8,436 nucleotides of DNA. It comes from Chloroflexota bacterium. GTDB taxonomy: Bacteria; Chloroflexota; Anaerolineae; Promineifilales; Promineifilaceae. The notes beneath the pieces were generated by a model. That model saw only the letters and a program-made list of their open reading frames with translations. It ran no database searches and had not been told where the DNA came from. Location of the stretch: assembly GCA_008501785.1 (NCBI GenBank), contig QQUD01000587.1:1-8436 (forward strand), in the 5' to 3' direction. Position numbers and translations under genes: made by a program. Shown in pieces: positions 862-8,436 of the stretch. Position 1 is the stretch's first letter, and each line of letters starts with the position of its first letter.

Positions 862-1866
862 ATGAGCAAGCTAAAGCATTTTGAAACCAATACAGGCCGA
901 ATAATTTACTCGTTTCCAGTGCAATCTTTTCCCGGTTTAATCAACAACATTATGATTATTACCGATGGGGAACAGCGCATTTTGGTTGATTGTGGCTCTG
1001 GCACACCACAGGCAAATGATGAACTGTTGGCGGGCATAACGGCCGTTTCCGAACAACACGACCCCTCTATTAAATTCGAAACCCTCGACACCATCCTCAT
1101 CACCCACGGCCACATCGACCATTTTGGCGGCCTGCCCTTTGTACGCCAATTCACCGATGCCCCCGTTGGCATCCACGTTTTAGACCGGCGCGTCCTCTCT
1201 AACCACGAAGAGCGCGTCGTTTTTGCCTCGAACCGGCTCGATCTATTTTTAGAAAGCTCAGGGGTTTCTGAAAAACACCGCCAGGAATTGATGCAGGTTT
1301 ATCTGTTCAGCAAAAACTACTACCGCTCCATCCCCGTCCAATTTTTGCTAGAAGAAGGCACGCCCACCGTTGGCGACATTGGCGTTTACCATGTGCCCGG
1401 TCACTGCCCTGGGCAAGTTTGCCTGATGGTAGACGACATCATGCTCACCGCCGATCACATTTTGTCACGCATCACCCCACATCAAGCCCCCGAAAGCATC
1501 ACCAACAACATGGGATTGGGCCATTACCTCGATTCGCTCACTAAAATTGAACAGGTGGAAGACATTCGGCTGGCATTGGGTGGGCATGAGGAGGAAATGG
1601 GGGATGTATACGGCCGTATCCACGCCATCAAACAATCCCACGACAGCCGCCTCAACAAAATCCTCGACATCTGCCAATCCCCCAAATCCATCACCGACAT
1701 CAGCCGAGACCTGTTCGGCAACGTGCTCAGCTACCACGTCCTGCTCGCCCTCGAAGAAACTGGGGCTCACGTCGAATACCTCTACCAGCGCGGCGAACTC
1801 GTCGCCGCCAACCTTGAAGAAATCGAATCCACCAGCCACCCTATCGTGCAATACATTCGGGCGTGA
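862..1866 (+). CDS. MBL-fold metallo-hydrolase with C-terminal winged-helix-like region
   Basis: This 334-residue protein carries the metallo-beta-lactamase metal-binding signature. THGHIDH at residues 81-87 supplies H82, H84, D86 and H87. H181 sits in PGHCPG, D198 in TADHI, and H242 in GGHEE, matching the usual di-metal (normally zinc) ligand set. The core covers about residues 15-250. Residues about 260-315 form a small helical region with the spacing of the winged-helix tail seen in LACTB2-like members, so that subgroup is favoured. Members are hydrolases acting on thioesters, lactones or phosphodiesters; the substrate cannot be read from the sequence. No signal peptide is present, so it is probably cytoplasmic. 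The ATG at 862 has no ribosome-binding site but is preceded by TATAAT. The gene converges on the DM13 gene with 32 bases between stops and no hairpin terminator. Confidence 0.9.
   Translation: MSKLKHFETNTGRIIYSFPVQSFPGLINNIMIITDGEQRILVDCGSGTPQANDELLAGITAVSEQHDPSIKFETLDTILITHGHIDHFGGLPFVRQFTDAPVGIHVLDRRVLSNHEERVVFASNRLDLFLESSGVSEKHRQELMQVYLFSKNYYRSIPVQFLLEEGTPTVGDIGVYHVPGHCPGQVCLMVDDIMLTADHILSRITPHQAPESITNNMGLGHYLDSLTKIEQVEDIRLALGGHEEEMGDVYGRIHAIKQSHDSRLNKILDICQSPKSITDISRDLFGNVLSYHVLLALEETGAHVEYLYQRGELVAANLEEIESTSHPIVQYIRA
1038..1047. repeat. AACGGCCGTT palindrome, copy 1
   Basis: Exact copy inside the MBL-fold hydrolase gene, read as Thr-Ala-Val in residues 60-62. Confidence 0.9.
1609..1618. 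repeat. Variant TACGGCCGTA palindrome
   Basis: The core CGGCCG is kept, and symmetric changes outside it preserve a perfect 12-bp palindrome (1608-1619), inside the hydrolase gene at Val-Tyr-Gly-Arg-Ile (249-253). Confidence 0.6.
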
Positions 1867-1898
1867 TTGTTCCAAACATCTGAGGTTTTGTCTACAAG

Positions 1899-2573
1899 CT
1901 AATTCAACGTGGCTGTCGAAAAAACGACGTGGAATGGTACACAGTAAATGACCACGCTTTGGTAGTCTGACAAATCGACATCGGCTGGAATTTCGTAGTT
2001 TTGATTGCCAATATTGCCTTTAATGGCTCCCAGGTCAATGTAATCTTCACCGACATCGCTGCGACTGGCGGGGGCCGGGTGTTTAGTCAAAATAACGTGC
2101 AAATCAGGGCCATTGGTGACGGAAAATTCTTCAAAGCGCAGCACCCGTTCGTCGTTTTGTTGGAAGATAACGGCCGTTCCCTCACCCAAATGAAAGCTAT
2201 CCGCATCCACAAACTCACCCGCTGCTACTTGCACCCACTCCGCTGCGGCGACAGGCATTTCATCATCCATGCTTTTATCTTGCATCACCAACGCGGCAGC
2301 AGCCAGCACATCCTCTTCAACTTGAGCCAGTTGTTCAGGCGACAGACTCTCTAAAACATCAGCATCTGGCACAGCTTCCATAAAATCATTTTCTAACGCC
2401 TGCCGCTCATCTGCGGGCATCGCGTCAACCGCCGCTGCATCGGGCATCTCAAATGGAAACGCTTCATCAACTGCATTTTCTATAAAAAGTGGCGAGGCCA
2501 AATACCAGCCAGCAGCCAATACAACAATTAGCCCAATCAATCCACCAACGAATAATAATGCTCGGTTTTTCAT
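1899..2573 (-). CDS. Membrane-anchored DM13-domain protein
   Basis: The 224-residue product starts MKNR and has one hydrophobic segment at about residues 6-28, followed by a Pro/Ala/acid-rich stalk (about 33-108). This suggests an N-terminal anchor with the rest outside the membrane. The C-terminal half (about 112-224) matches the DM13 domain (PF10517): GEF..A.SFHLGEGTAVI, VLRFEEFSVTNGPDLHVIL, LGAIKGNIGNQNYEIP, and a final VVIYCVPFHVVFSTATL. The single Cys, C211, sits at the conserved DM13 cysteine position. That cysteine underlies published proposals of redox or electron-transfer roles, which remain unproven. An AGGAG (complement of 2580-2584) six bases before the ATG fixes the start. The gene is separated from the upstream same-strand gene by about 210 bases of repeats, so it is probably its own unit. 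Confidence 0.88.
   Translation of the reverse strand: MKNRALLFVGGLIGLIVVLAAGWYLASPLFIENAVDEAFPFEMPDAAAVDAMPADERQALENDFMEAVPDADVLESLSPEQLAQVEEDVLAAAALVMQDKSMDDEMPVAAAEWVQVAAGEFVDADSFHLGEGTAVIFQQNDERVLRFEEFSVTNGPDLHVILTKHPAPASRSDVGEDYIDLGAIKGNIGNQNYEIPADVDLSDYQSVVIYCVPFHVVFSTATLN
2169..2178. repeat. AACGGCCGTT palindrome, copy 2
   Basis: Exact copy within the DM13 domain, read on the minus strand as Thr-Ala-Val (residues 133-135). Confidence 0.9.
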
Positions 2574-2593
2574 TTTTCACTCCTGAAAGAAGG

Positions 2594-2621
2594 TTTCAGC
2601 CATCAGCCATCAGCTTTCAGC
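2594..2621. repeat. Four tandem heptanucleotides, (TTT/CAT)CAGC
   Basis: Two CATCAGC units (2601-2607 and 2608-2614) are flanked on each side by a TTTCAGC unit (2594-2600 and 2615-2621), giving 28 bases of perfect 7-base periodicity. It lies ten bases upstream of the ribosome-binding site of the DM13 gene, so it would be in its 5' leader or promoter zone. It resembles in form the short tandemly repeated heptanucleotides (STRR) described in filamentous cyanobacteria. Confidence 0.75.
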
Positions 2622-2683
2622 TTGTTACCAGATTAGTTATTCTCTGCTTTGAATTGTTGGATGGGGTCAAACGGTTGTTTTTT

Positions 2684-2703
2684 ACGCGAATTGAGAAGAT
2701 TTA
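2684..2703. repeat. Diverged copy of an ACGC(A)GATTAAGAAGATTTA-type repeat
   Basis: The sequence here, ACGCGAATTGAGAAGATTTA, aligns with 6808-6827 with few differences. It is the second member in this window of an A-rich intergenic repeat located next to hairpins. The alignment was made by eye. Confidence 0.4.
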
Positions 2704-2735
2704 AGGGTTTTGTAAGATTTATTACCAAATGGATA

Positions 2736-2768
2736 ACCCTCCCGGAGGTGCGGCACCTCCGGGAGGGT
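2736..2768. repeat. 16-bp perfect inverted repeat downstream of the cNMP-binding gene
   Basis: Bases 2736-2751 are the exact reverse complement of 2753-2768, with a single G (2752) at the centre; the arm reads ACCCTCCCGGAGGTGC. It lies 17 bases beyond the stop of the minus-strand gene at 2786, where a terminator would be. The RNA hairpin would be very stable, but the bases after it on that strand (TTATCCATTTGG) are not a U-run. It is therefore either an atypical terminator/RNA stabiliser or a REP-like palindromic repeat. Confidence 0.7.
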
Positions 2769-2785
2769 AAAGTTGTTTATGATGA

Positions 2786-3574
2786 CTAGTCATCAAGGTC
2801 TGACAAAAGTCCGGTGTCTTTGCGGCGGCGAACGGCCGTTTCCTTCAACTGCGCCAAGCTTTGCGGCGAATTCTGCATCCAGCGCATAAAAGATTCACGG
2901 CTAAAGGTGACAACCTGAACGGCCGTTAACGCTCGCACTGTCGCATTCCGCTGTCGCCTTTCCAGCAGACCAATCTCGCCAAAAAAGTCACCCTCACCCA
3001 ACTGCCGCACCACATCTACATCGCCAGCATCATTTTGATGAGTAACTTCAACCAACCCTTCCACAATAATATAAAATTTCTCAGAGGGATCGCCTTGCTG
3101 AATGATTGTTTCACCTGGCGCATACATTGCCGCGTGTTCCAAACCTTGCGTCTCAAAAAAGCCAGTTTGTCGTTTCCGTTTTTTCTTCGGTGTTAACCTA
3201 TCCGTTATTCCCGACATTGGCATTTTTAACGGACCCGTGCGCTGTCTCACCAATGCCTCAAGTTCTTCTTGAATCACGGGTGACGACTCTAACCAACTGA
3301 CAAATGTAGCATAATCCATCGCCATCACATCAACATTAGTCAAGGCTCGCACAGTCGCATTTCGGGGCGTCTGCCGCATCAGACCAATTTCACCAAAGTA
3401 ATCACCAGCTTGCAGCGTCGCAATAAACTTCTCAATGCCATCGTCCTGCTGTTCAATCACTTCCACACGGCCACTGCTAATGATATAAAATTTATCCGGC
3501 ATATCTCCCTGGCGAATAATAACCACACCAGCAGGAAAATGCTCGGGGCCAAATTTTGGATTGGATTGCGTCAT
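2786..3574 (-). CDS. Tandem cyclic-nucleotide-binding-domain protein, no output domain
   Basis: The 262-residue protein consists of two CRP/PKA-type nucleotide-binding domains. The first (about residues 13-108) has the phosphate-binding cassette FGEIGLMRQTPRNATVRA (60-77). The second (about 151-245) has FGEIGLLERRQRNATVRA (198-215). Each keeps the Gly-Glu pair and the Arg that contacts the cyclic phosphate (R71, R209) in this family. The domains are alike enough to be an internal duplication. The linker holds a basic run PKKKRKRQ (129-136). No helix-turn-helix, kinase or membrane segment is present, so it is not a CRP-type transcription factor; it may be a stand-alone sensor or regulatory subunit. 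AAGGA (complement of 3582-3586) lies seven bases before the ATG. A TATAAT box at 3640-3645 suggests its own promoter. The domain call is firm, the ligand and partner are unknown. Confidence 0.9.
   Translation of the reverse strand: MTQSNPKFGPEHFPAGVVIIRQGDMPDKFYIISSGRVEVIEQQDDGIEKFIATLQAGDYFGEIGLMRQTPRNATVRALTNVDVMAMDYATFVSWLESSPVIQEELEALVRQRTGPLKMPMSGITDRLTPKKKRKRQTGFFETQGLEHAAMYAPGETIIQQGDPSEKFYIIVEGLVEVTHQNDAGDVDVVRQLGEGDFFGEIGLLERRQRNATVRALTAVQVVTFSRESFMRWMQNSPQSLAQLKETAVRRRKDTGLLSDLDD
2831..2840. repeat. AACGGCCGTT palindrome, copy 3
   Basis: Exact copy near the 3' end of the cNMP-binding gene, read as Thr-Ala-Val (residues 246-248). Confidence 0.9.
2918..2927. repeat. AACGGCCGTT palindrome, copy 4
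   Basis: Exact copy in the second cNMP-binding domain, read as Thr-Ala-Val (217-219). The matching place in the first domain reads Thr-Asn-Val (79-81) and lacks the palindrome. Confidence 0.9.
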
Positions 3575-3639
3575 TAAAAGTTCCTTTCGTATCGTAGCCG
3601 ATTAAAACTGGCACATAAACATCTTAATCTTCACAGCAC

Positions 3640-3645
3640 ATTATA
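3640..3645 (-). promoter_or_regulatory. Candidate -10 box of the cNMP-binding gene
   Basis: The minus strand reads TATAAT here, placing a start near 3632 and a leader of about 58 bases containing the AAGGA site. The -35 region 17 bases upstream (CACTGA) is poor, so the promoter may need an activator or may not be real. Confidence 0.35.
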
Positions 3646-3747
3646 GCGAAACACGCCGCAGATCAGTGCATAATAGGCCAATTTTCCTACCCACACATGA
3701 AAACAAAATTAGGCCGACCCCCTATTCCAAACAAACTATCAGAAGCA

Positions 3748-3757
3748 AACGGCCGTT
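3748..3757. repeat. AACGGCCGTT palindrome, copy 5
   Basis: The only exact copy between genes, 46 bases past the stop of the debranching enzyme gene; flanking A and T extend it to a 12-bp palindrome (3747-3758). Confidence 0.9.
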
Positions 3758-3803
3758 TTCCTACAACAACATCCTCCTTGCCCCTTTGCTCCCCGCCCCC
3801 TTC

Positions 3804-5786
3804 CTAAATGTTCTCCGTCTCTTTCAACGCCCGTAACAATTCCGCCACACTCCAAGCCTGCGCAATACAGCCACGCGGCGTAAACGGCGCATCACCATCA
3901 AAAATCTCGCTGATGCTGCCCACACCATGATCCGCCAAATGATACATGAGCGGTTCCAGATAGGTACGTGCCTGAGCGTTATCCTGATAAACGCGCAAAT
4001 GGGCGCTGACAAATGGACCAATCAGCCATGCCCAGACGGTACCTTGATGATAGGCTCCGTCTCGCTTGGAACGATCTCCCCCGTAATGTCCAATATAATT
4101 TTTATCATCGGGTGAGAGACTGCGCATACCAAGCCCTGTCAACAAATGACGCGCACAGGCATCTACCACAGACCGCTGTTGTTCGGCAGGCAATGGGCTG
4201 TGTTTCAAAGAAACCGCCAACAGTTGATTGGGGCGCAAGCTGCCATCGTAGTCATCCGGGCCATCAACCACATCGTAACAATACCCCATTTTAGCATACC
4301 AAAAACGGCCGAATCCGACTTTCACCTTTTCTGCCAACGCATCATAAAGATCCGCAGGTTTATCAAGCAAGCGCGCAAAATCTCCCATGATGCATAATGC
4401 GTTATACCAAAGCGCATTAATTTCCACTGGCTTGCCGATACGAGAGGTCACGACCCATTGATCAATCTTGGCATCCATCCAGGTGAGTTGGCTGCCCGGT
4501 TCACCGGCATACAAAAGCCCATCCCGCTCATCCATATGAATGCTGTACCGGGTACCGCGTTGATGCCACATGATCATCTCTTGCAAAACCGGGAACAGTT
4601 CACGCACCAATTCATCATTTCCCGTCGCTTCATGGTAGGCACGAAGCGCCTCAACATACCAAAGTGTCGCATCAACTGTGTTGTATTCGGGTCGCTCACC
4701 TTCATCGGGAAAACGGTTGGGAATCATGCCCTGGTCTACAAATTGAGCATAGGTGCGTAAAATGCTGGCCGCTACTTCAGACCGGTTGGTAGCCAAGGTC
4801 AACCCAGGCAGCGCAATCATCGTATCACGCCCCCAGTCACCAAACCAATGATAACCGGCAATGATAGAACGGCCGTTAACATCACTCGCAGTCGGCCGTT
4901 TTACCACAAACTGATCCGCCGCCAACACCAATTGATGCAATGATTTCGGCAAATCAGCTTTATCCAACAGCGCCTTCTCATACGCCTGCCGCTCCGCATA
5001 AGCCGAGTCACCATCCATATTCGCATCTGCATCCGTTGTTGCCACCAGCGTTATCGACTCACCAGGCCGCAGCGTCGCTCGAATGAGTGCCGCATAAACA
5101 TGATCCTCTTCAACATCTGGCTGCCCCCGAAATTCCTCAACTTTCAAATAAAAATCTTCATACCAATCAAACTGCGGAATCAGCAGAGCACGATCACTCA
5201 TCAAATAATAAGGCGTCGCGTTTTCAAACATTTGCAGCTTCAGCACACGAGAAATCGATTGAATATCTGGCTGCCAATCTTGCATAATCGTCGTATTATG
5301 ATAATCACGATAATCAACAAACGCTTTTGCTTCCAGGCTCAATGGGCCAGTGGCTCGTACCAATCTGTATTGAATATAAGTCGTATTGGCACCAGGCTGC
5401 ATCCAAATTCGCTTTTCAAGCAGCGCATTGCCAATGCCATACGTCCAAACAGGCGTTGTGCCTTCGAGGTGAAATCGGTTTAAATTAAAATGACCAAACG
5501 ATTCGAGCGTGTCATCTGACCAACGATTGGCATAAAGTGGATAAAATTTCCCGCTTTCGGGGTAAATGCCATCGTATTCGGCCGTTTCATCAATCTTAGC
5601 CACCATCAACGTCCGTCCCAACGGTGGCTCAAGCGATGCCATCAGCAATCCATGATAACGACGGGTCAATACACCAGCGATAGTACCGGAAGCAAAGCCA
5701 CCAATGCCATTGGTAACTAACCACTCCCGCGACTCAGCAACGGACGAATTCCCACAAACCTCACGTCCGAAATCTAATTTGATCAT
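3804..5786 (-). CDS. Glycogen debranching enzyme, amylo-alpha-1,6-glucosidase type (GH133)
   Basis: The 660-residue protein has the bacterial/archaeal two-part debranching layout. An N-terminal domain (about residues 15-250) opens with SREWLVTNGIGGFASGTIAG and RRYHGLL (42-48). A C-terminal (alpha/alpha)6-barrel glucosidase domain (about 285-655) carries IIAGYHWFGDWGRDTMIALPG (308-328), YNTVDATLWYVEAL (368-381), EINALWYNAL (455-464), GAYHQGTVWAWLIGPF (577-592) and SISEIFDGDAPFTPRGCIAQAWS (624-646). By family precedent the Asp of GRD (D321) and the Glu of SEIFDG (E627) are candidate catalytic acids; I have not verified this. It would hydrolyse alpha-1,6 branch points in glycogen or related glucans in the cytoplasm. 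No signal peptide is seen and the length is full for the family. AAGGAG (complement of 5794-5799) sits seven bases before the ATG. No other glycogen gene is in the window, so it appears to stand alone. Confidence 0.93.
   Translation of the reverse strand: MIKLDFGREVCGNSSVAESREWLVTNGIGGFASGTIAGVLTRRYHGLLMASLEPPLGRTLMVAKIDETAEYDGIYPESGKFYPLYANRWSDDTLESFGHFNLNRFHLEGTTPVWTYGIGNALLEKRIWMQPGANTTYIQYRLVRATGPLSLEAKAFVDYRDYHNTTIMQDWQPDIQSISRVLKLQMFENATPYYLMSDRALLIPQFDWYEDFYLKVEEFRGQPDVEEDHVYAALIRATLRPGESITLVATTDADANMDGDSAYAERQAYEKALLDKADLPKSLHQLVLAADQFVVKRPTASDVNGRSIIAGYHWFGDWGRDTMIALPGLTLATNRSEVAASILRTYAQFVDQGMIPNRFPDEGERPEYNTVDATLWYVEALRAYHEATGNDELVRELFPVLQEMIMWHQRGTRYSIHMDERDGLLYAGEPGSQLTWMDAKIDQWVVTSRIGKPVEINALWYNALCIMGDFARLLDKPADLYDALAEKVKVGFGRFWYAKMGYCYDVVDGPDDYDGSLRPNQLLAVSLKHSPLPAEQQRSVVDACARHLLTGLGMRSLSPDDKNYIGHYGGDRSKRDGAYHQGTVWAWLIGPFVSAHLRVYQDNAQARTYLEPLMYHLADHGVGSISEIFDGDAPFTPRGCIAQAWSVAELLRALKETENI
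4304..4313. repeat. Degenerate copy, AACGGCCGAA
   Basis: The left half and core are intact and the right flank is changed; it lies in the debranching enzyme gene, encoding Phe-Gly-Arg-Phe on the minus strand. Confidence 0.5.
4868..4877. repeat. AACGGCCGTT palindrome, copy 6
   Basis: Exact copy in the debranching enzyme gene, read as Asn-Gly-Arg (304-306), just before the catalytic-domain motif IIAGYHWFGDWGRD. Confidence 0.9.
4891..4900. repeat. Degenerate copy, GTCGGCCGTT
   Basis: The right half and core are intact, 23 bases from exact copy 6, in the codons for Lys-Arg-Pro-Thr (296-299) of the debranching enzyme. Confidence 0.5.
5577..5586. repeat. Degenerate copy, TTCGGCCGTT
   Basis: The right half and core are intact, in the codons for Glu-Thr-Ala-Glu (67-70) of the debranching enzyme. 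Confidence 0.5.
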
Positions 5787-5896
5787 ACAGTGACTCCTTC
5801 AATCATAGTATTTGGTCAACAGTTACTTGCGCTCTATTTAAAACAGCGGGTTGGGAATTAAAACTTTTAGTTTCATGCATAAAAATTATTTTGTGT

Positions 5897-5926
5897 ATCA
5901 TATGCCAAACTTAGTGAATTAGGCAA
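5897..5926 (-). promoter_or_regulatory. Candidate promoter of the debranching enzyme gene
   Basis: On the minus strand TTGCCT (complement of 5921-5926), 18 bases, then TATGAT (complement of 5897-5902) match the sigma-70 consensus at four and five positions. The start would be near 5890, with a leader of roughly 100 bases. The intervening DNA is AT-rich. Confidence 0.4.
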
Positions 5927-5942
5927 ACATTTAACGAGAAAG

Positions 5943-5971
5943 TTGCCCACTGTGTAAGAGCCAGCTAAAGT
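5943..5971 (+). promoter_or_regulatory. Candidate promoter of nth, close to its start codon
   Basis: TTGCCC (5943-5948), 17 bases, and TAAAGT (5966-5971) form a moderate sigma-70-like promoter. The predicted start, about 5978, is only a few bases before the ATG at 5982, leaving no room for a ribosome-binding site. This agrees with the absence of a Shine-Dalgarno sequence and points to a nearly leaderless mRNA. Confidence 0.38.
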
Positions 5972-5981
5972 TAAATTTACC

Positions 5982-6635
5982 ATGAGCAAACAATTGCAAA
6001 AACCATCTCCAAAATACTTATCTGCCATCCTATCACGATTAGAAAAAATGCACCCCGATGCCCATTGTGAGCTAAATTATGAAACACCGCACCAACTGCT
6101 AGTTGCCACCATACTATCTGCCCAATGCACCGACCAGCGCGTCAACATAGTAACGCCTCCGCTGTTTGCCACATACCAAACACCAGCAGATTTTGCCGCA
6201 GCCAACCGCACCGAGCTAGAAGAATTGATTCGCTCAACGGGCTTTTTTCGGCAAAAGGCGCGTTTTATTCAAGAATCGGCGCATACGATTGTGCATGAAC
6301 ACGGTGGTGAAATACCGCAAGAGATGGATAGTTTACTCAAGCTAACCGGCGTGGCACGAAAAACGGCCAACGTTGTTTTAGGCGAGATTTACGGCATTGC
6401 AGATGGCATTACTGTCGATACGCATGTCAAACGCATTGCACATAAATTAGGCCTCACCAGCACAAACAAAGACCCAGTCAAAGTTGAAAAAGAATTAATG
6501 ACACTCATTCCGCAATCACACTGGATTCAGATTTCTCATCTGCTCGTTTTTCATGGCCGCCGCATCTGCAAAGCCCGTCGCCCCGACTGCTCTAACTGTC
6601 CATTAAACGATCTCTGCCCATCAGCAGAGCCATAA
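5982..6635 (+). CDS. nth: Endonuclease III, DNA glycosylase/AP lyase
   Basis: The 217-residue protein is a full-length endonuclease III, the base-excision-repair enzyme that removes oxidised pyrimidines and cleaves the abasic site by beta-elimination. It has LVATILSAQCTDQRVN (40-55), the helix-hairpin-helix LTGVARKTANVVL (121-133) with catalytic lysine K127, and VDTHV (145-149) with catalytic aspartate D146. The C-terminal iron-sulphur motif is C196-x6-C203-x2-C206-x5-C212, binding one [4Fe-4S] cluster. These match E. coli Nth K120, D138 and its four cysteines. The N-terminus is a few residues longer than in E. coli. The ATG at 5982 lacks a Shine-Dalgarno sequence. The gene is divergent from the debranching enzyme gene and followed by hairpin repeats. 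It holds no exact AACGGCCGTT, although AAACGGCC occurs at 6361-6368. Confidence 0.96.
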   Translation: MSKQLQKPSPKYLSAILSRLEKMHPDAHCELNYETPHQLLVATILSAQCTDQRVNIVTPPLFATYQTPADFAAANRTELEELIRSTGFFRQKARFIQESAHTIVHEHGGEIPQEMDSLLKLTGVARKTANVVLGEIYGIADGITVDTHVKRIAHKLGLTSTNKDPVKVEKELMTLIPQSHWIQISHLLVFHGRRICKARRPDCSNCPLNDLCPSAEP

Positions 6636-6680
6636 AGTGTATAAGGCCCACGATCCTGTCCCGTCCTGAAAGTCGTAAAA

Positions 6681-6695
6681 CAAAACGCTGTTTTG
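6681..6695. repeat. Small hairpin CAAAAC-GCT-GTTTTG
   Basis: A perfect 6-bp inverted repeat with loop GCT lies 46 bases after the nth stop. Read on the minus strand it is followed by TTTT, but no minus-strand gene ends here. On the plus strand CTCCCCC follows, so it is a poor terminator for nth. It shares the centre ACGCTGT with the next hairpin. Confidence 0.55.
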
Positions 6696-6702
6696 CTCCC
6701 CC

Positions 6703-6723
6703 GGTCAAGACGCTGTCTTGACC
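6703..6723. repeat. Hairpin GGTCAAGAC-GCT-GTCTTGACC
   Basis: A perfect 9-bp inverted repeat with loop GCT lies 25 bases (centre to centre) from a similar hairpin. The identical loop and the ACGCTGT core in both, with different outer arms kept complementary, suggest a repeat family under selection for folding. It may help end or stabilise the nth transcript, but no U-run follows. Confidence 0.65.
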
Positions 6724-6804
6724 TACGATCATTATAGATTTTCATCTGACATGATGCCGTGCAACGACATGTTTTGGGGATCAGCAAAAAGTTTTCAGAA
6801 ACCT

Positions 6805-6849
6805 TAAACGCAGATTAAGAAGATTTAGGACGAAAATTAAGAAGATTAA
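6805..6849. repeat. A-rich direct repeat with ATTAAGAAGATT units
   Basis: ATTAAGAAGATT occurs at 6814-6825 and again at 6836-6847, a 22-base period. The left copy sits within TAAACGCAGATTAAGAAG. The segment TTAAATCTGTGT at 6863-6874 is an imperfect reverse complement of ACGCAGATTAA (6808-6818), so the whole may be one inverted-repeat element. A related copy lies at 2684-2703. Confidence 0.5.
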
Positions 6850-6969
6850 TTTCAATTTCCTCTTAAATCTGTGTCATTTGTAGTGGTATGCCACGCTCGC
6901 AAAACCCCCTATGCGAAATACCCTCCTATGAGGATTGAAAAAGAATTTGGTTCATTTTTTTATATGGAA

Positions 6970-6998
6970 TAAACAAAATGTGACCCTATTGGTATAAT
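6970..6998 (+). promoter_or_regulatory. Promoter of the ribA-ribD fusion gene
   Basis: TAAACA (6970-6975), a 17-base spacer and a perfect TATAAT (6993-6998) preceded by TGG give an extended -10 promoter, the best in the window. The start would be near 7005, leaving a 5' leader of about 67 bases, too short for an FMN riboswitch and without its conserved sequence. Confidence 0.6.
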
Positions 6999-7041
6999 AA
7001 TTAATCTGTACCGAGGGAAAGGACACTTTTTACACAGCAAT

Positions 7042-7065
7042 ATGTTGAACACACTGCAATCATAG
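7042..7065 (+). other. Seven-codon upstream open reading frame in the ribA leader
   Basis: ATG at 7042 opens MLNTLQS and stops with TAG at 7063-7065, six bases before the ribA ATG and in the same frame. It shows that the ribA frame cannot start further upstream. Its nearest GGA (7020-7022) is about 19 bases before the ATG, too far for a good ribosome-binding site. Translation of this mini-ORF is therefore doubtful. Confidence 0.25.
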
Positions 7066-7071
7066 CAAAAT

Positions 7072-8436
7072 ATGACTCAAATAACTGTAGAGAAAAAGAC
7101 GTGTGCCCGCATTCCAACAGAGGCTGGCGAATTTCAACTTTGTTATTTTAAAAACAATCAAGATAGCAAAGAACATCTCGCCCTCATATTCGGTGACATC
7201 ACGCAAACATCACCTATTCTCACACGCATCCATTCAGAATGTTTTACGGGAGATGTACTGGGTTCAAGGCGGTGTGATTGCGGTCCACAACTGCAAAGCG
7301 CGATGGAGATGATTGCTGCAGAAGGACGGGGGGTGATTGTTTATTTGCGGCAAGAGGGGCGCGGCATTGGGCTGTTAGACAAGCTGCGTGCTTATAATTT
7401 GCAAGATTTAGGCTATGACACAATTGATGCAAATTTGTTGTTAGGTCATCAAGCCGATGCGCGTGATTACACAATTGCCGCGCTCATTTTGCAAGAATTG
7501 AGGATTGAATCGCTGCGCTTAATCACCAACAATCCTGTAAAAATTGAAAGCCTGGAGCAGCTTGGCGTTGCAGTGGCGGAGCGGGTTTCGATTCAAACGG
7601 CCGTTCACGCCGACAATAAAGTATACCTCTCGACCAAAGTATCCCGAATGCGCCATCTGTTGCATATCAATGAGGGTGAAAATGGCACAATGAACGGCCG
7701 TTCAGACGATCATTCGGCTGGGGGAAACGGCCGTTTACAACCAACCCTCTTGCCAACACCCCACCTGACACCACATCCAACCCGTCCGGCTGTTACCTTG
7801 AGCTATGCTCAAAGTTTAGACGGGTCAATCACTGCCAAACGCGGCCAACCAACAGCTATCAGCGGCGATGCATCTATGAAACTGACCCATCAGCTTCGCG
7901 CCAGCCACGATGCCATTTTGGTGGGAATTGGCACAGTTCTGGCAGATAACCCACGCCTCAACGTGCGCCTGGCAGAAGGCAGCGATCCACAGCCCATCAT
8001 TTTAGACACTGAGCTGCGTTTCCCACTTGATGCGCGTCTGCTGCAAAACAAACGCTGTCCGTGGATTGCCACATCTGCCCACGCATCACAAGCGAAACAA
8101 TCTGCGCTGGAGGCTACCGGAGCCAAGGTGCTGCGCTTTCCTGTCAACGAGCAAGGACATGTTGATCTGACGACTGTATTGGCTAAATTAGCAGATGCAC
8201 ACATTCACAGTGTCATGGTTGAGGGTGGCGCACAGATAATCACAGCTTTTCTAAATTTGCAGCTTGTGGATCGGGTTGTACTCACGATTGCACCCAAGTT
8301 TATCGGAGGGTATCATGCGGTGGGAGCGATGTCGGGAAACGGCCGTTTACACCCCCACTTGATCAACACACACACCACCCAAATGGGCGATGATTTGATT
8401 GTCTTTGGTGATGCCGTTTGGCCTGAAGCAGCAAAT
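7072..8436 (+). CDS. ribA: GTP cyclohydrolase II fused to RibD-type pyrimidine reductase, 3' end beyond window
   Basis: The frame gives 455 residues and is still open at the window end. Residues 1-200 are RibA: HSECFTGDVLGSRRCDCG (54-71) gives zinc ligands C57, C68 and C70, YLRQEGRGIGLLDKLRAY (91-108) includes Y108, and ADARDY (128-133) holds D129 and R131. These correspond to E. coli Y105, D126 and R128. TNNPVKIESL (152-161) also fits. It converts GTP to 2,5-diamino-6-ribosylamino-4(3H)-pyrimidinone 5'-phosphate. A linker (about 201-238) follows. Residues about 239-450 are the RibD C-terminal reductase (PF01872): VTLSYAQSLDGSIT, RASHDAILVGIGTVLADNPRL, VMVEGGAQIITAFL and APKFIGG. The final MGDDLIVFG implies the stop is close. 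The RibD deaminase domain is absent, so another protein must supply it. There is no Shine-Dalgarno; an in-frame TAG at 7063 supports the ATG at 7072. The fusion could skip one pathway step, or the reductase half could serve another substrate. Confidence 0.92.
   Translation, partial: MTQITVEKKTCARIPTEAGEFQLCYFKNNQDSKEHLALIFGDITQTSPILTRIHSECFTGDVLGSRRCDCGPQLQSAMEMIAAEGRGVIVYLRQEGRGIGLLDKLRAYNLQDLGYDTIDANLLLGHQADARDYTIAALILQELRIESLRLITNNPVKIESLEQLGVAVAERVSIQTAVHADNKVYLSTKVSRMRHLLHINEGENGTMNGRSDDHSAGGNGRLQPTLLPTPHLTPHPTRPAVTLSYAQSLDGSITAKRGQPTAISGDASMKLTHQLRASHDAILVGIGTVLADNPRLNVRLAEGSDPQPIILDTELRFPLDARLLQNKRCPWIATSAHASQAKQSALEATGAKVLRFPVNEQGHVDLTTVLAKLADAHIHSVMVEGGAQIITAFLNLQLVDRVVLTIAPKFIGGYHAVGAMSGNGRLHPHLINTHTTQMGDDLIVFGDAVWPEAAN
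7596..7605. repeat. AACGGCCGTT palindrome, copy 7
   Basis: Exact copy in the RibA domain, read as Thr-Ala-Val (176-178), in the variable stretch after the conserved GVAVAERV segment. Confidence 0.9.
7693..7702. repeat. AACGGCCGTT palindrome, copy 8
   Basis: Exact copy in the linker between RibA and the reductase domain, extended by TG and CA to a perfect 14-bp palindrome (7691-7704); read as Asn-Gly-Arg (208-210). Confidence 0.9.
7726..7735. repeat. AACGGCCGTT palindrome, copy 9
   Basis: Exact copy 33 bases (11 codons) after copy 8 in the same linker and the same frame, read as Asn-Gly-Arg (219-221); flanks extend it to a 12-bp palindrome. Confidence 0.9.
8338..8347. repeat. AACGGCCGTT palindrome, copy 10
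   Basis: Exact copy near the end of the reductase domain, read as Asn-Gly-Arg (423-425), in a loop-like segment between APKFIGG and the final strand; a 12-bp palindrome with its flanks. Confidence 0.9.

Follow-up and report, generated by a model that had tools for sequence, protein, structure and literature searches.

Ten exact copies of one 10-base palindrome, AACGGCCGTT, lie in an 8,436-nucleotide (nt) stretch of DNA from a Chloroflexota bacterium (contig QQUD01000587.1; hereafter the window), and the question they raise is whether they belong to a highly iterated palindrome (HIP) of the kind known from cyanobacteria as HIP1. An initial annotation of the window proposed such a HIP1-like element, with AACGGCCGTT as its unit. 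Analysis of related genomes bears out the first part of this proposal and corrects the second: the repeats are a HIP of one Chloroflexota clade, and the iterated unit is the octamer ACGGCCGT, with the core CGGCCG. The evidence lies in the density of the octamer, in a core that recurs in alternate words, in persistence exceeding that of comparable words, and in a compositional skew of the flanking DNA.

All ten copies start where the annotation placed them (Table 1), against a chance expectation that it put at roughly 0.01 copies and that we compute as 0.007 from base composition and as 0.011, 0.019 and 0.043 from Markov models of order 1, 2 and 3, respectively. With up to two mismatches allowed, AACGGCCGTT occurs 22 times in the window, compared to 3.9 ± 2.0 times in shuffled sequence, and none of 200 shuffles reached 22. 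No other 10-base palindrome occurs there more than once. The reported count of 14 CGGCCG hexamers is correct, although the accompanying figure of one or two expected is slightly low, the order-1 to order-3 Markov expectation being 2.2–3.4. Reading of both strands confirms the three further sites said to retain CGGCCGTT (plus strand, 4893 and 5579; minus strand, 4306). Nine of the ten copies indeed fall in predicted genes, which belong to unrelated families and lie on either strand, and one (at 3748) is intergenic. The octamer itself is found 11 times in the 8436 nt (1,304 per Mb), ten times with the outer A..T.

The window encodes a glycogen debranching enzyme whose closest relatives are from Chloroflexota (79% for Chloroflexi bacterium and 74% for Ardenticatenaceae, among the named sources of the best 120 of 7997 matches). 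Genome contigs were scanned for this enzyme, and of the 539 loci confirmed, the best 80 were analyzed. In at least 12 Chloroflexota loci from 11 genomes (L001–L005, L007–L010, L012, L053 and L055), ACGGCCGT is the top overrepresented palindromic octamer, at 18–37 times expectation. Enrichment is lower in L059 (7 copies, 9.9-fold) and in the short locus L006 (4 copies, 6.3-fold), and the remaining Chloroflexota loci among the 80 show none. The same scan contains its own positive control, as at least 40 loci carry eight or more copies of GCGATCGC, the cyanobacterial HIP1. Whole-genome counts for 20 Chloroflexota picked from these loci gave 5,641–15,031 copies of ACGGCCGT in 10 genomes, 2,982 in G020 and 1–505 in the other nine. 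The reversed control word occurs 20–514 times in all 20 genomes and 64–403 times in the 10 strong ones. Density in the strong relatives is thus roughly 1–2 per kb across the whole genome, and we infer the same spread for the window's own genome.

Of 396 genomes drawn evenly from the class, 20 had at least 450 copies of ACGGCCGT per Mb, and most others had fewer than 300 copies. In octamer-rich genomes the density is 991–2102 per Mb, inside the range of about 500–2500 per Mb given for HIPs by Elhai (2015; PMC4390886), whose study covers cyanobacterial genomes. The annotation had suggested comparing palindrome frequencies across relatives with a Markov background. In 1.21 Mb of pooled pieces from 24 assemblies, window included (L055 was left out because it overlaps other pieces), a motif-masked order-3 model predicts 33.9 copies of ACGGCCGT, and 2,108 are present, an excess of 62-fold; the runner-up palindromic octamer reaches 3.8 times expectation. 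The frequency in relatives is therefore far above expectation, and there the HIP-like reading survives its proposed refutation. Among 432 sites, 95% are in open reading frames (ORFs), which span 91% of the DNA, and all three codon offsets are used (228/140/43). No fixed longer sequence flanks ACGGCCGT, the surrounding composition being graded only. Together with the 62-fold excess, the use of every offset and the spread over unrelated proteins and an intergenic site, this makes it extremely improbable that the repeats arose by chance or from composition, codon usage, repeated proteins or mobile elements.

The overrepresented unit is the octamer. Nine octamers that deviate from it at one inner position occur at 0.4–1.3 times expectation, and two of the three outer-A variants are raised (TCGGCCGT at 4.5-fold and GCGGCCGT at 2.5-fold, with CCGGCCGT at 1.0-fold). 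The base outside the octamer varies by lineage. The window and L009 mostly have A..T (25 of 30 sites), and C..G is the commonest outer pair in L007, L010 and L012 (26 of 128 sites). Sister genomes have other words, with one shared core, CGGCCG. The word is GCGGCCGC in G199 (20 copies in 13.9 kb, 19.7-fold) and TCGGCCGA in G114 (32 copies in 19 kb, 16.5-fold). CGGCCG is enriched with no dominant flank in G020 (7.9-fold), G170 (6.6-fold) and G222 (3.7-fold), and ACGGCCGT accounts for just 7 of 60 cores in G020 and 11 of 96 in G170. Overall, CGGCCG exceeds its reversed control at least 2.5-fold in 30 of the 396 genomes. The 8.0-Mb genome of G199 (L161) also combines a strongly enriched with a strongly avoided palindrome, having 13,814 CGGCCG but only 51 GCCGGC; its word, GCGGCCGC, is the NotI site.

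Thousands of dispersed coding copies are typical also of DNA uptake sequences, and the octamer could in principle serve as an uptake or self-recognition sequence in natural transformation. We regard this as very unlikely, since a palindrome with alternates built on a conserved core better fits a methyltransferase or a dimeric protein. We know of no DNA uptake sequence that is palindromic.

The HIP genomes are related. Of 59 genomes chosen for an rpoB tree, 56 could be placed (G394, G006 and G332 had no match); as the 59 were picked for motif, methyltransferase or NurA status, they are a sample rather than a census. One clade of 30 genomes, with a support of 100 in the Shimodaira–Hasegawa-like approximate likelihood-ratio test (SH-aLRT), contains all 23 placed HIP genomes: 17 with ACGGCCGT, 2 with an alternate word and 4 of the hexamer type. 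The clade also includes 5 weakly enriched and 2 motif-free genomes (G016 and G349). G129, with a CGGCCG ratio of 2.6, falls outside it, and G332 (ratio 8.3, from only 243 copies), G248 (3.1) and G285 (2.6) are unplaced on the tree.

The DNA flanking the octamer is asymmetric in a strand-specific fashion. On every strand, the 5′ side of ACGGCCGT is G-rich and the 3′ side C-rich. At fourfold-degenerate codon positions around 1,911 sites (baseline –0.045), upstream GC skew is +0.43 at 7–15 nt, +0.28 at 16–30 nt, +0.15 at 31–45 nt and +0.13 at 46–60 nt, and the corresponding downstream values are –0.45, –0.32, –0.19 and –0.13. Past 60 nt the flip has mostly faded (about +0.05 upstream, –0.11 to –0.14 downstream). 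For the most part C and G change places, with A and T barely moving beyond the first six bases. The bias is found in every codon offset and fades smoothly. Across Chloroflexota pieces with at least five sites (24 assemblies, several pieces each), the flip at 7–45 nt is positive in 63 of 63. There is no flip at cores without either outer base (21 of 46 pieces positive, median –0.01) or at control palindromes (33 of 60, median 0.01), and pooling all non-octamer CGGCCG cores gives a slight +0.08 at 7–15 nt only. Sites of the window and L009 show a skew of +0.66 at 7–15 nt (28 sites). The flip has the same sign at GCGGCCGC (16 sites); at CGGCCG it is weaker in G020 and G170 and marginal in G365 and G222, and the weakly enriched group has none. 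A hairpin was considered as a source of the flank composition and set aside, as complementarity between the arms rises above the level set by composition clearly at position 1 alone and marginally at positions 4 and 16.

Cyanobacterial HIP1 has a flip as well, and its sign agrees in 35 of 40 pieces (median 0.21). It is weak at the HIP1 core outside HIP1 (19 of 25 pieces, median 0.09), and cyanobacterial control palindromes show none (18 of 40 positive). That two unrelated words share this signature points to similar DNA processes at the Chloroflexota HIP and at HIP1. Other short palindromes give little: skew at cyanobacterial GGCC is at most +0.07, at 7–15 nt, with none further out, and E. coli CCWGG has a slight opposite bias (–0.11 at 16–30 nt, in 100 kb of K-12). 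Calothrix GGCGCC, with 29 sites, gives no clear signal either way. No word starting with "skew" or "asymmetr" occurs in Elhai (2015; PMC4390886), and we found no paper in the open-licence literature in which "highly iterated palindrom" occurs together with GC skew; PMC3497702 contains both GCGATCGC and "skew".

Sites also persist. We compared related genomes over blastn stretches of at least 600 bases and >78% identity. G006 and G019, whose stretches are ~90–94% identical, share 63 sites of 66 and 67, or 95%, versus 59–62% for comparable 8-mers. The figures are 20 shared of 22 and 25 (85% versus 68–69%) for G008/G271, 20 of 26 and 24 (80% versus 33–35%) for G010/G008, and 15 of 17 and 18 (86% versus 40–45%) for G010/G271. 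ACGGCCGT is thus shared in excess of comparable 8-mers in all four pairs, two of which overlap in sequence. As the sites outlive comparable words, we infer that they are actively maintained. Their spacing is near random, at 1.6–2.1 per kb, with pairs closer than 50 nt depleted in five of six stretches; in the sixth (G006) the sites are clumped. A mutation hotspot at the sites was considered and finds no support in the divergence of the aligned pairs.

These features could alternatively reflect a nucleoid, segregation or recombination protein that binds the octamer, with selection keeping both the sites and flanks that aid binding or wrapping, and methylation being incidental. The excess conservation of the sites, their near-random spacing with few close pairs and the smooth flank effect in all codon offsets fit such a protein. 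So does divergence at fourfold-degenerate positions, which is slightly reduced within 30 nt of shared sites in three of three pairs (near versus far, about 0.14 versus 0.17, 0.08 versus 0.14 and 0.24 versus 0.30, bins pooled by hand). Other observations fit less well. The flank is a graded G/C bias with no position-specific consensus, its self-complementarity is as limited as described above, and the same bias at an unrelated cyanobacterial octamer would require a second protein of like preference. No such protein was found. We consider this explanation somewhat unlikely.

The annotation also named DNA methylation among the possible roles of the repeats and suggested a search for a co-occurring orphan methyltransferase. 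A link to methylation is suggestive at most: a co-occurring candidate orphan enzyme was found, but its distribution is confounded by ancestry, and no m5C (5-methylcytosine) enzyme is common to the strong genomes. An m5C methyltransferase universal to HIP genomes was rejected on the grounds that PF00145 is absent from 5 of the 10 strong genomes and from hexamer-type G222. Separately, G020 (loci L081, L089 and L093–L096), whose repeated word is bare CGGCCG, has six m5C methyltransferase matches. A search with PF01555 led to a candidate orphan methyltransferase of ~660 residues with a weakly DUF1156-like start, in which GGGT and DPPY motifs are invariant among 23 sequences. The PF01555 match is split (55.1 and 40.8 bits), DUF1156 matches one of two proteins at 18.1 bits, below the 24-bit cut-off, and NF042963 scores of 75.5 and 76 are far under its cut-off of 1000. 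No close solved structure was matched (best E 0.004). In its sources, among them Candidatus Leptofilum, the protein is called "DNA methyltransferase", "putative DNA methylase" or "hypothetical protein". One copy, of 658 residues, is encoded at L115:1273–3249 (–).

Of the 396 genomes, 49 have a close homologue of the candidate, scoring at least 276 bits; G038, whose match (325 bits, 37% identity) sits on a long branch, was excluded and scored negative. The median CGGCCG/control ratio is 1.75 with the candidate and 0.62 without, and the ratio is at least 2.5 in 21 of 49 versus 9 of 347 genomes. A tree of 48 candidate proteins tracks motif status. Within the clade of 30, the gene is present in 18 of 19 octamer-type genomes versus 5 of 11 others (table 18/5 versus 1/6, Fisher P = 0.0045). 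The enzyme may accompany the octamer form. Much of the association between methyltransferase and motif is, however, shared ancestry. Even with that confounding, the DUF1156-like enzyme is the best candidate partner.

In seven genomes (G314, G006, G384, G199, G114, G232 and G389) a NurA gene lies on the same strand within ~250 bases after the candidate methyltransferase (L185:8945–10150, L161:9584–10780, L175:15912–17099 and others; the G389 piece has the gene start only). The best NurA subfamily among the 396 genomes covers all HIP forms and most octamer genomes, with lower scores in G002 and G007, hardly any in G389, and no match in G019 or G329. NurA was nonetheless rejected as a specific partner: 305 of the 396 genomes have some NurA, G349 and G016 have the subfamily without the motif, and the HIP genomes form one rpoB clade. 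Another NurA gene, in G008 (L104), lies near a 320-residue methyltransferase-like ORF of a different type, with an SPPY motif.

A further possibility is that the octamer is purely a by-product, with methylation-dependent mismatch repair ratcheting sequence toward sites that are themselves useless, as in Elhai's model for HIPs. A MutL domain was found in 22 of 23 HIP genomes searched, and mismatch repair is therefore probably available. The core contains GGCC, which would allow GmeC, outer-position deviants are enriched, the alternates share one core, and the density of ~1 per kb matches the model's expectation as given in PMC4390886. As set out there, however, the model explains neither the A..T flank nor the skew flip, and no m5C methyltransferase is common to all strong genomes. 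We regard it as unlikely.

The reading that we favor, tentatively and with somewhat less than even confidence, is that the octamer is read by a DNA-acting system tied to modification of the core and to strand processing at the site. Such a system would read the octamer whole and would also sense the modification state of CGGCCG, which would probably be set by an orphan methyltransferase, the DUF1156-like protein being the best candidate. A nick or an end would probably open one strand at the site, with each strand briefly exposed or processed along its 5′ flank, comparable to start points of methyl-directed repair or recombination. Strand opening with flank processing would favor mutations that make or keep sites and would give rise to asymmetric G/C flanks of ~60 nt on each side. 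The direction of the skew fits 5′-end resection or nick translation from the site.

Several observations weigh against this proposal. No nick-making enzyme was identified. Substitution near the sites is not clearly raised, which also fits selection on the flanks: besides the slightly lowered fourfold divergence described above, divergence over all positions up to 110 nt from a site shows a small increase in G006/G019 and a decrease in G010/G008. Unpolarised C/G exchange shows no excess near sites (within 60 nt in G006/G019, C-to-G at 10 of 285 C and G-to-C at 24 of 585 G), and hence a mutagenic repair tract lacks direct support. E. coli Dam/GATC is a short methylated palindrome that directs strand-specific repair, but unlike the octamer, GATC has a skew of at most +0.05 (100 kb of K-12). 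At TCGGCCGA in G114 (29 sites) the skew has the same sign and does not fade, standing at +0.26 at 91–150 nt. As for the candidate methyltransferase, supported rpoB branches provide only two independent contrasts, usually both agreeing; it has no match in octamer-type G153 or in the hexamer genomes G020, G170, G222 and G365; it occurs in many motif-free genomes; and in G114 the gene (L175:17117–19001) is split into two overlapping frames, by a frameshift or a sequencing error.

Table 1. Copies of the palindrome and related octamers in the window
Feature	Position	Location
AACGGCCGTT, copy 1	1038..1047	metallo-β-lactamase-fold gene, 862–1866 (+)
AACGGCCGTT, copy 2	2169..2178	DM13-domain gene, 1899–2573 (–)
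AACGGCCGTT, copy 3	2831..2840	cyclic-nucleotide-binding-domain gene, 2786–3574 (–)
AACGGCCGTT, copy 4	2918..2927	cyclic-nucleotide-binding-domain gene, 2786–3574 (–)
AACGGCCGTT, copy 5	3748..3757	intergenic
AACGGCCGTT, copy 6	4868..4877	glycogen-debranching-enzyme gene, 3804–5786 (–)
AACGGCCGTT, copy 7	7596..7605	GTP cyclohydrolase II / RibD-C fusion gene, 7072–8436 (+)
AACGGCCGTT, copy 8	7693..7702	GTP cyclohydrolase II / RibD-C fusion gene, 7072–8436 (+)
AACGGCCGTT, copy 9	7726..7735	GTP cyclohydrolase II / RibD-C fusion gene, 7072–8436 (+)
AACGGCCGTT, copy 10	8338..8347	GTP cyclohydrolase II / RibD-C fusion gene, 7072–8436 (+)
Eleventh ACGGCCGT octamer, as TACGGCCGTA, flank T..A	1609..1618	
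One-off octamer, AACGGCCGAA (CGGCCGTT on the minus strand)	4304..4313	
One-off octamer TCGGCCGT, as GTCGGCCGTT	4891..4900	
One-off octamer TCGGCCGT, as TTCGGCCGTT	5577..5586	

Two of the genes in Table 1, those for the metallo-β-lactamase-fold and DM13-domain proteins (862–2573), are convergent, and the DM13 protein seems to begin with a membrane anchor.

The comparison to HIP1 proposed by the annotation is apt. Both elements are perfect 8-base palindromes occurring about 1–2 times per kb genome-wide, mostly in genes; both tolerate deviations at the outer position, have lineage-specific palindromic extensions and alternates, and show the same-sign GC-skew flip (found for HIP1 in this work), which is stronger in Chloroflexota. 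The Chloroflexota element is not HIP1 proper, as the sequence is ACGGCCGT and the phylum a different one; with a core of CGGCCG rather than CGATCG, the GATC and CGATCG methyltransferases of HIP1 do not apply. Alternate HIPs of cyanobacteria (TCGATCGA, GGGATCCC, GGCGCC, rCCGGy and GCsGC; Elhai 2015) are likewise GC-rich palindromes that swap between sister lineages, but the four forms seen here (ACGGCCGT, GCGGCCGC, TCGGCCGA and bare CGGCCG) keep one core. In the Calothrix sp. HK-06 locus (L069), the leading palindromic hexamer is GGCGCC (32 copies, 21-fold) and HIP1 is outside the top octamers, in agreement with the alternate HIP that Elhai's paper gives for another Calothrix. The GGCC site of M.Ssp6803II, an N4-cytosine methyltransferase of Synechocystis, is the center of the octamer, and loss of this enzyme is reported to affect replication and repair (PMC6560206). 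In the open-licence literature we found no report of the Chloroflexota element, its sequence, its alternates or the skew signature; matches to AACGGCCGTT concerned a Thermus regulator site and norovirus or cytomegalovirus topics, and the match to the octamer was unrelated. HIPs as a kind are already known (Elhai 2015).

HIP1 is an element known for decades, and to our knowledge there is no agreement on what it does. A second phylum separates what is essential to a HIP (palindrome, reading as an octamer, density, persistence and flank skew) from what is accidental, namely the letters. Any mechanism that is proposed will have to account for the skew flip, a quantitative signature open to testing in public long-read data and in laboratory-tractable cyanobacteria. 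More broadly, though we think it rather unlikely, HIPs of unrelated phyla and unrelated sequence could mark where a single ancient kind of strand-specific DNA transaction, in repair or recombination, starts or stops, seen as the dyad-symmetric flip that extends about 60 nt to either side. If so, the Chloroflexota HIP, its alternates and its methyltransferase, which in several genomes lies beside a NurA-type resection nuclease, would expose the machinery.

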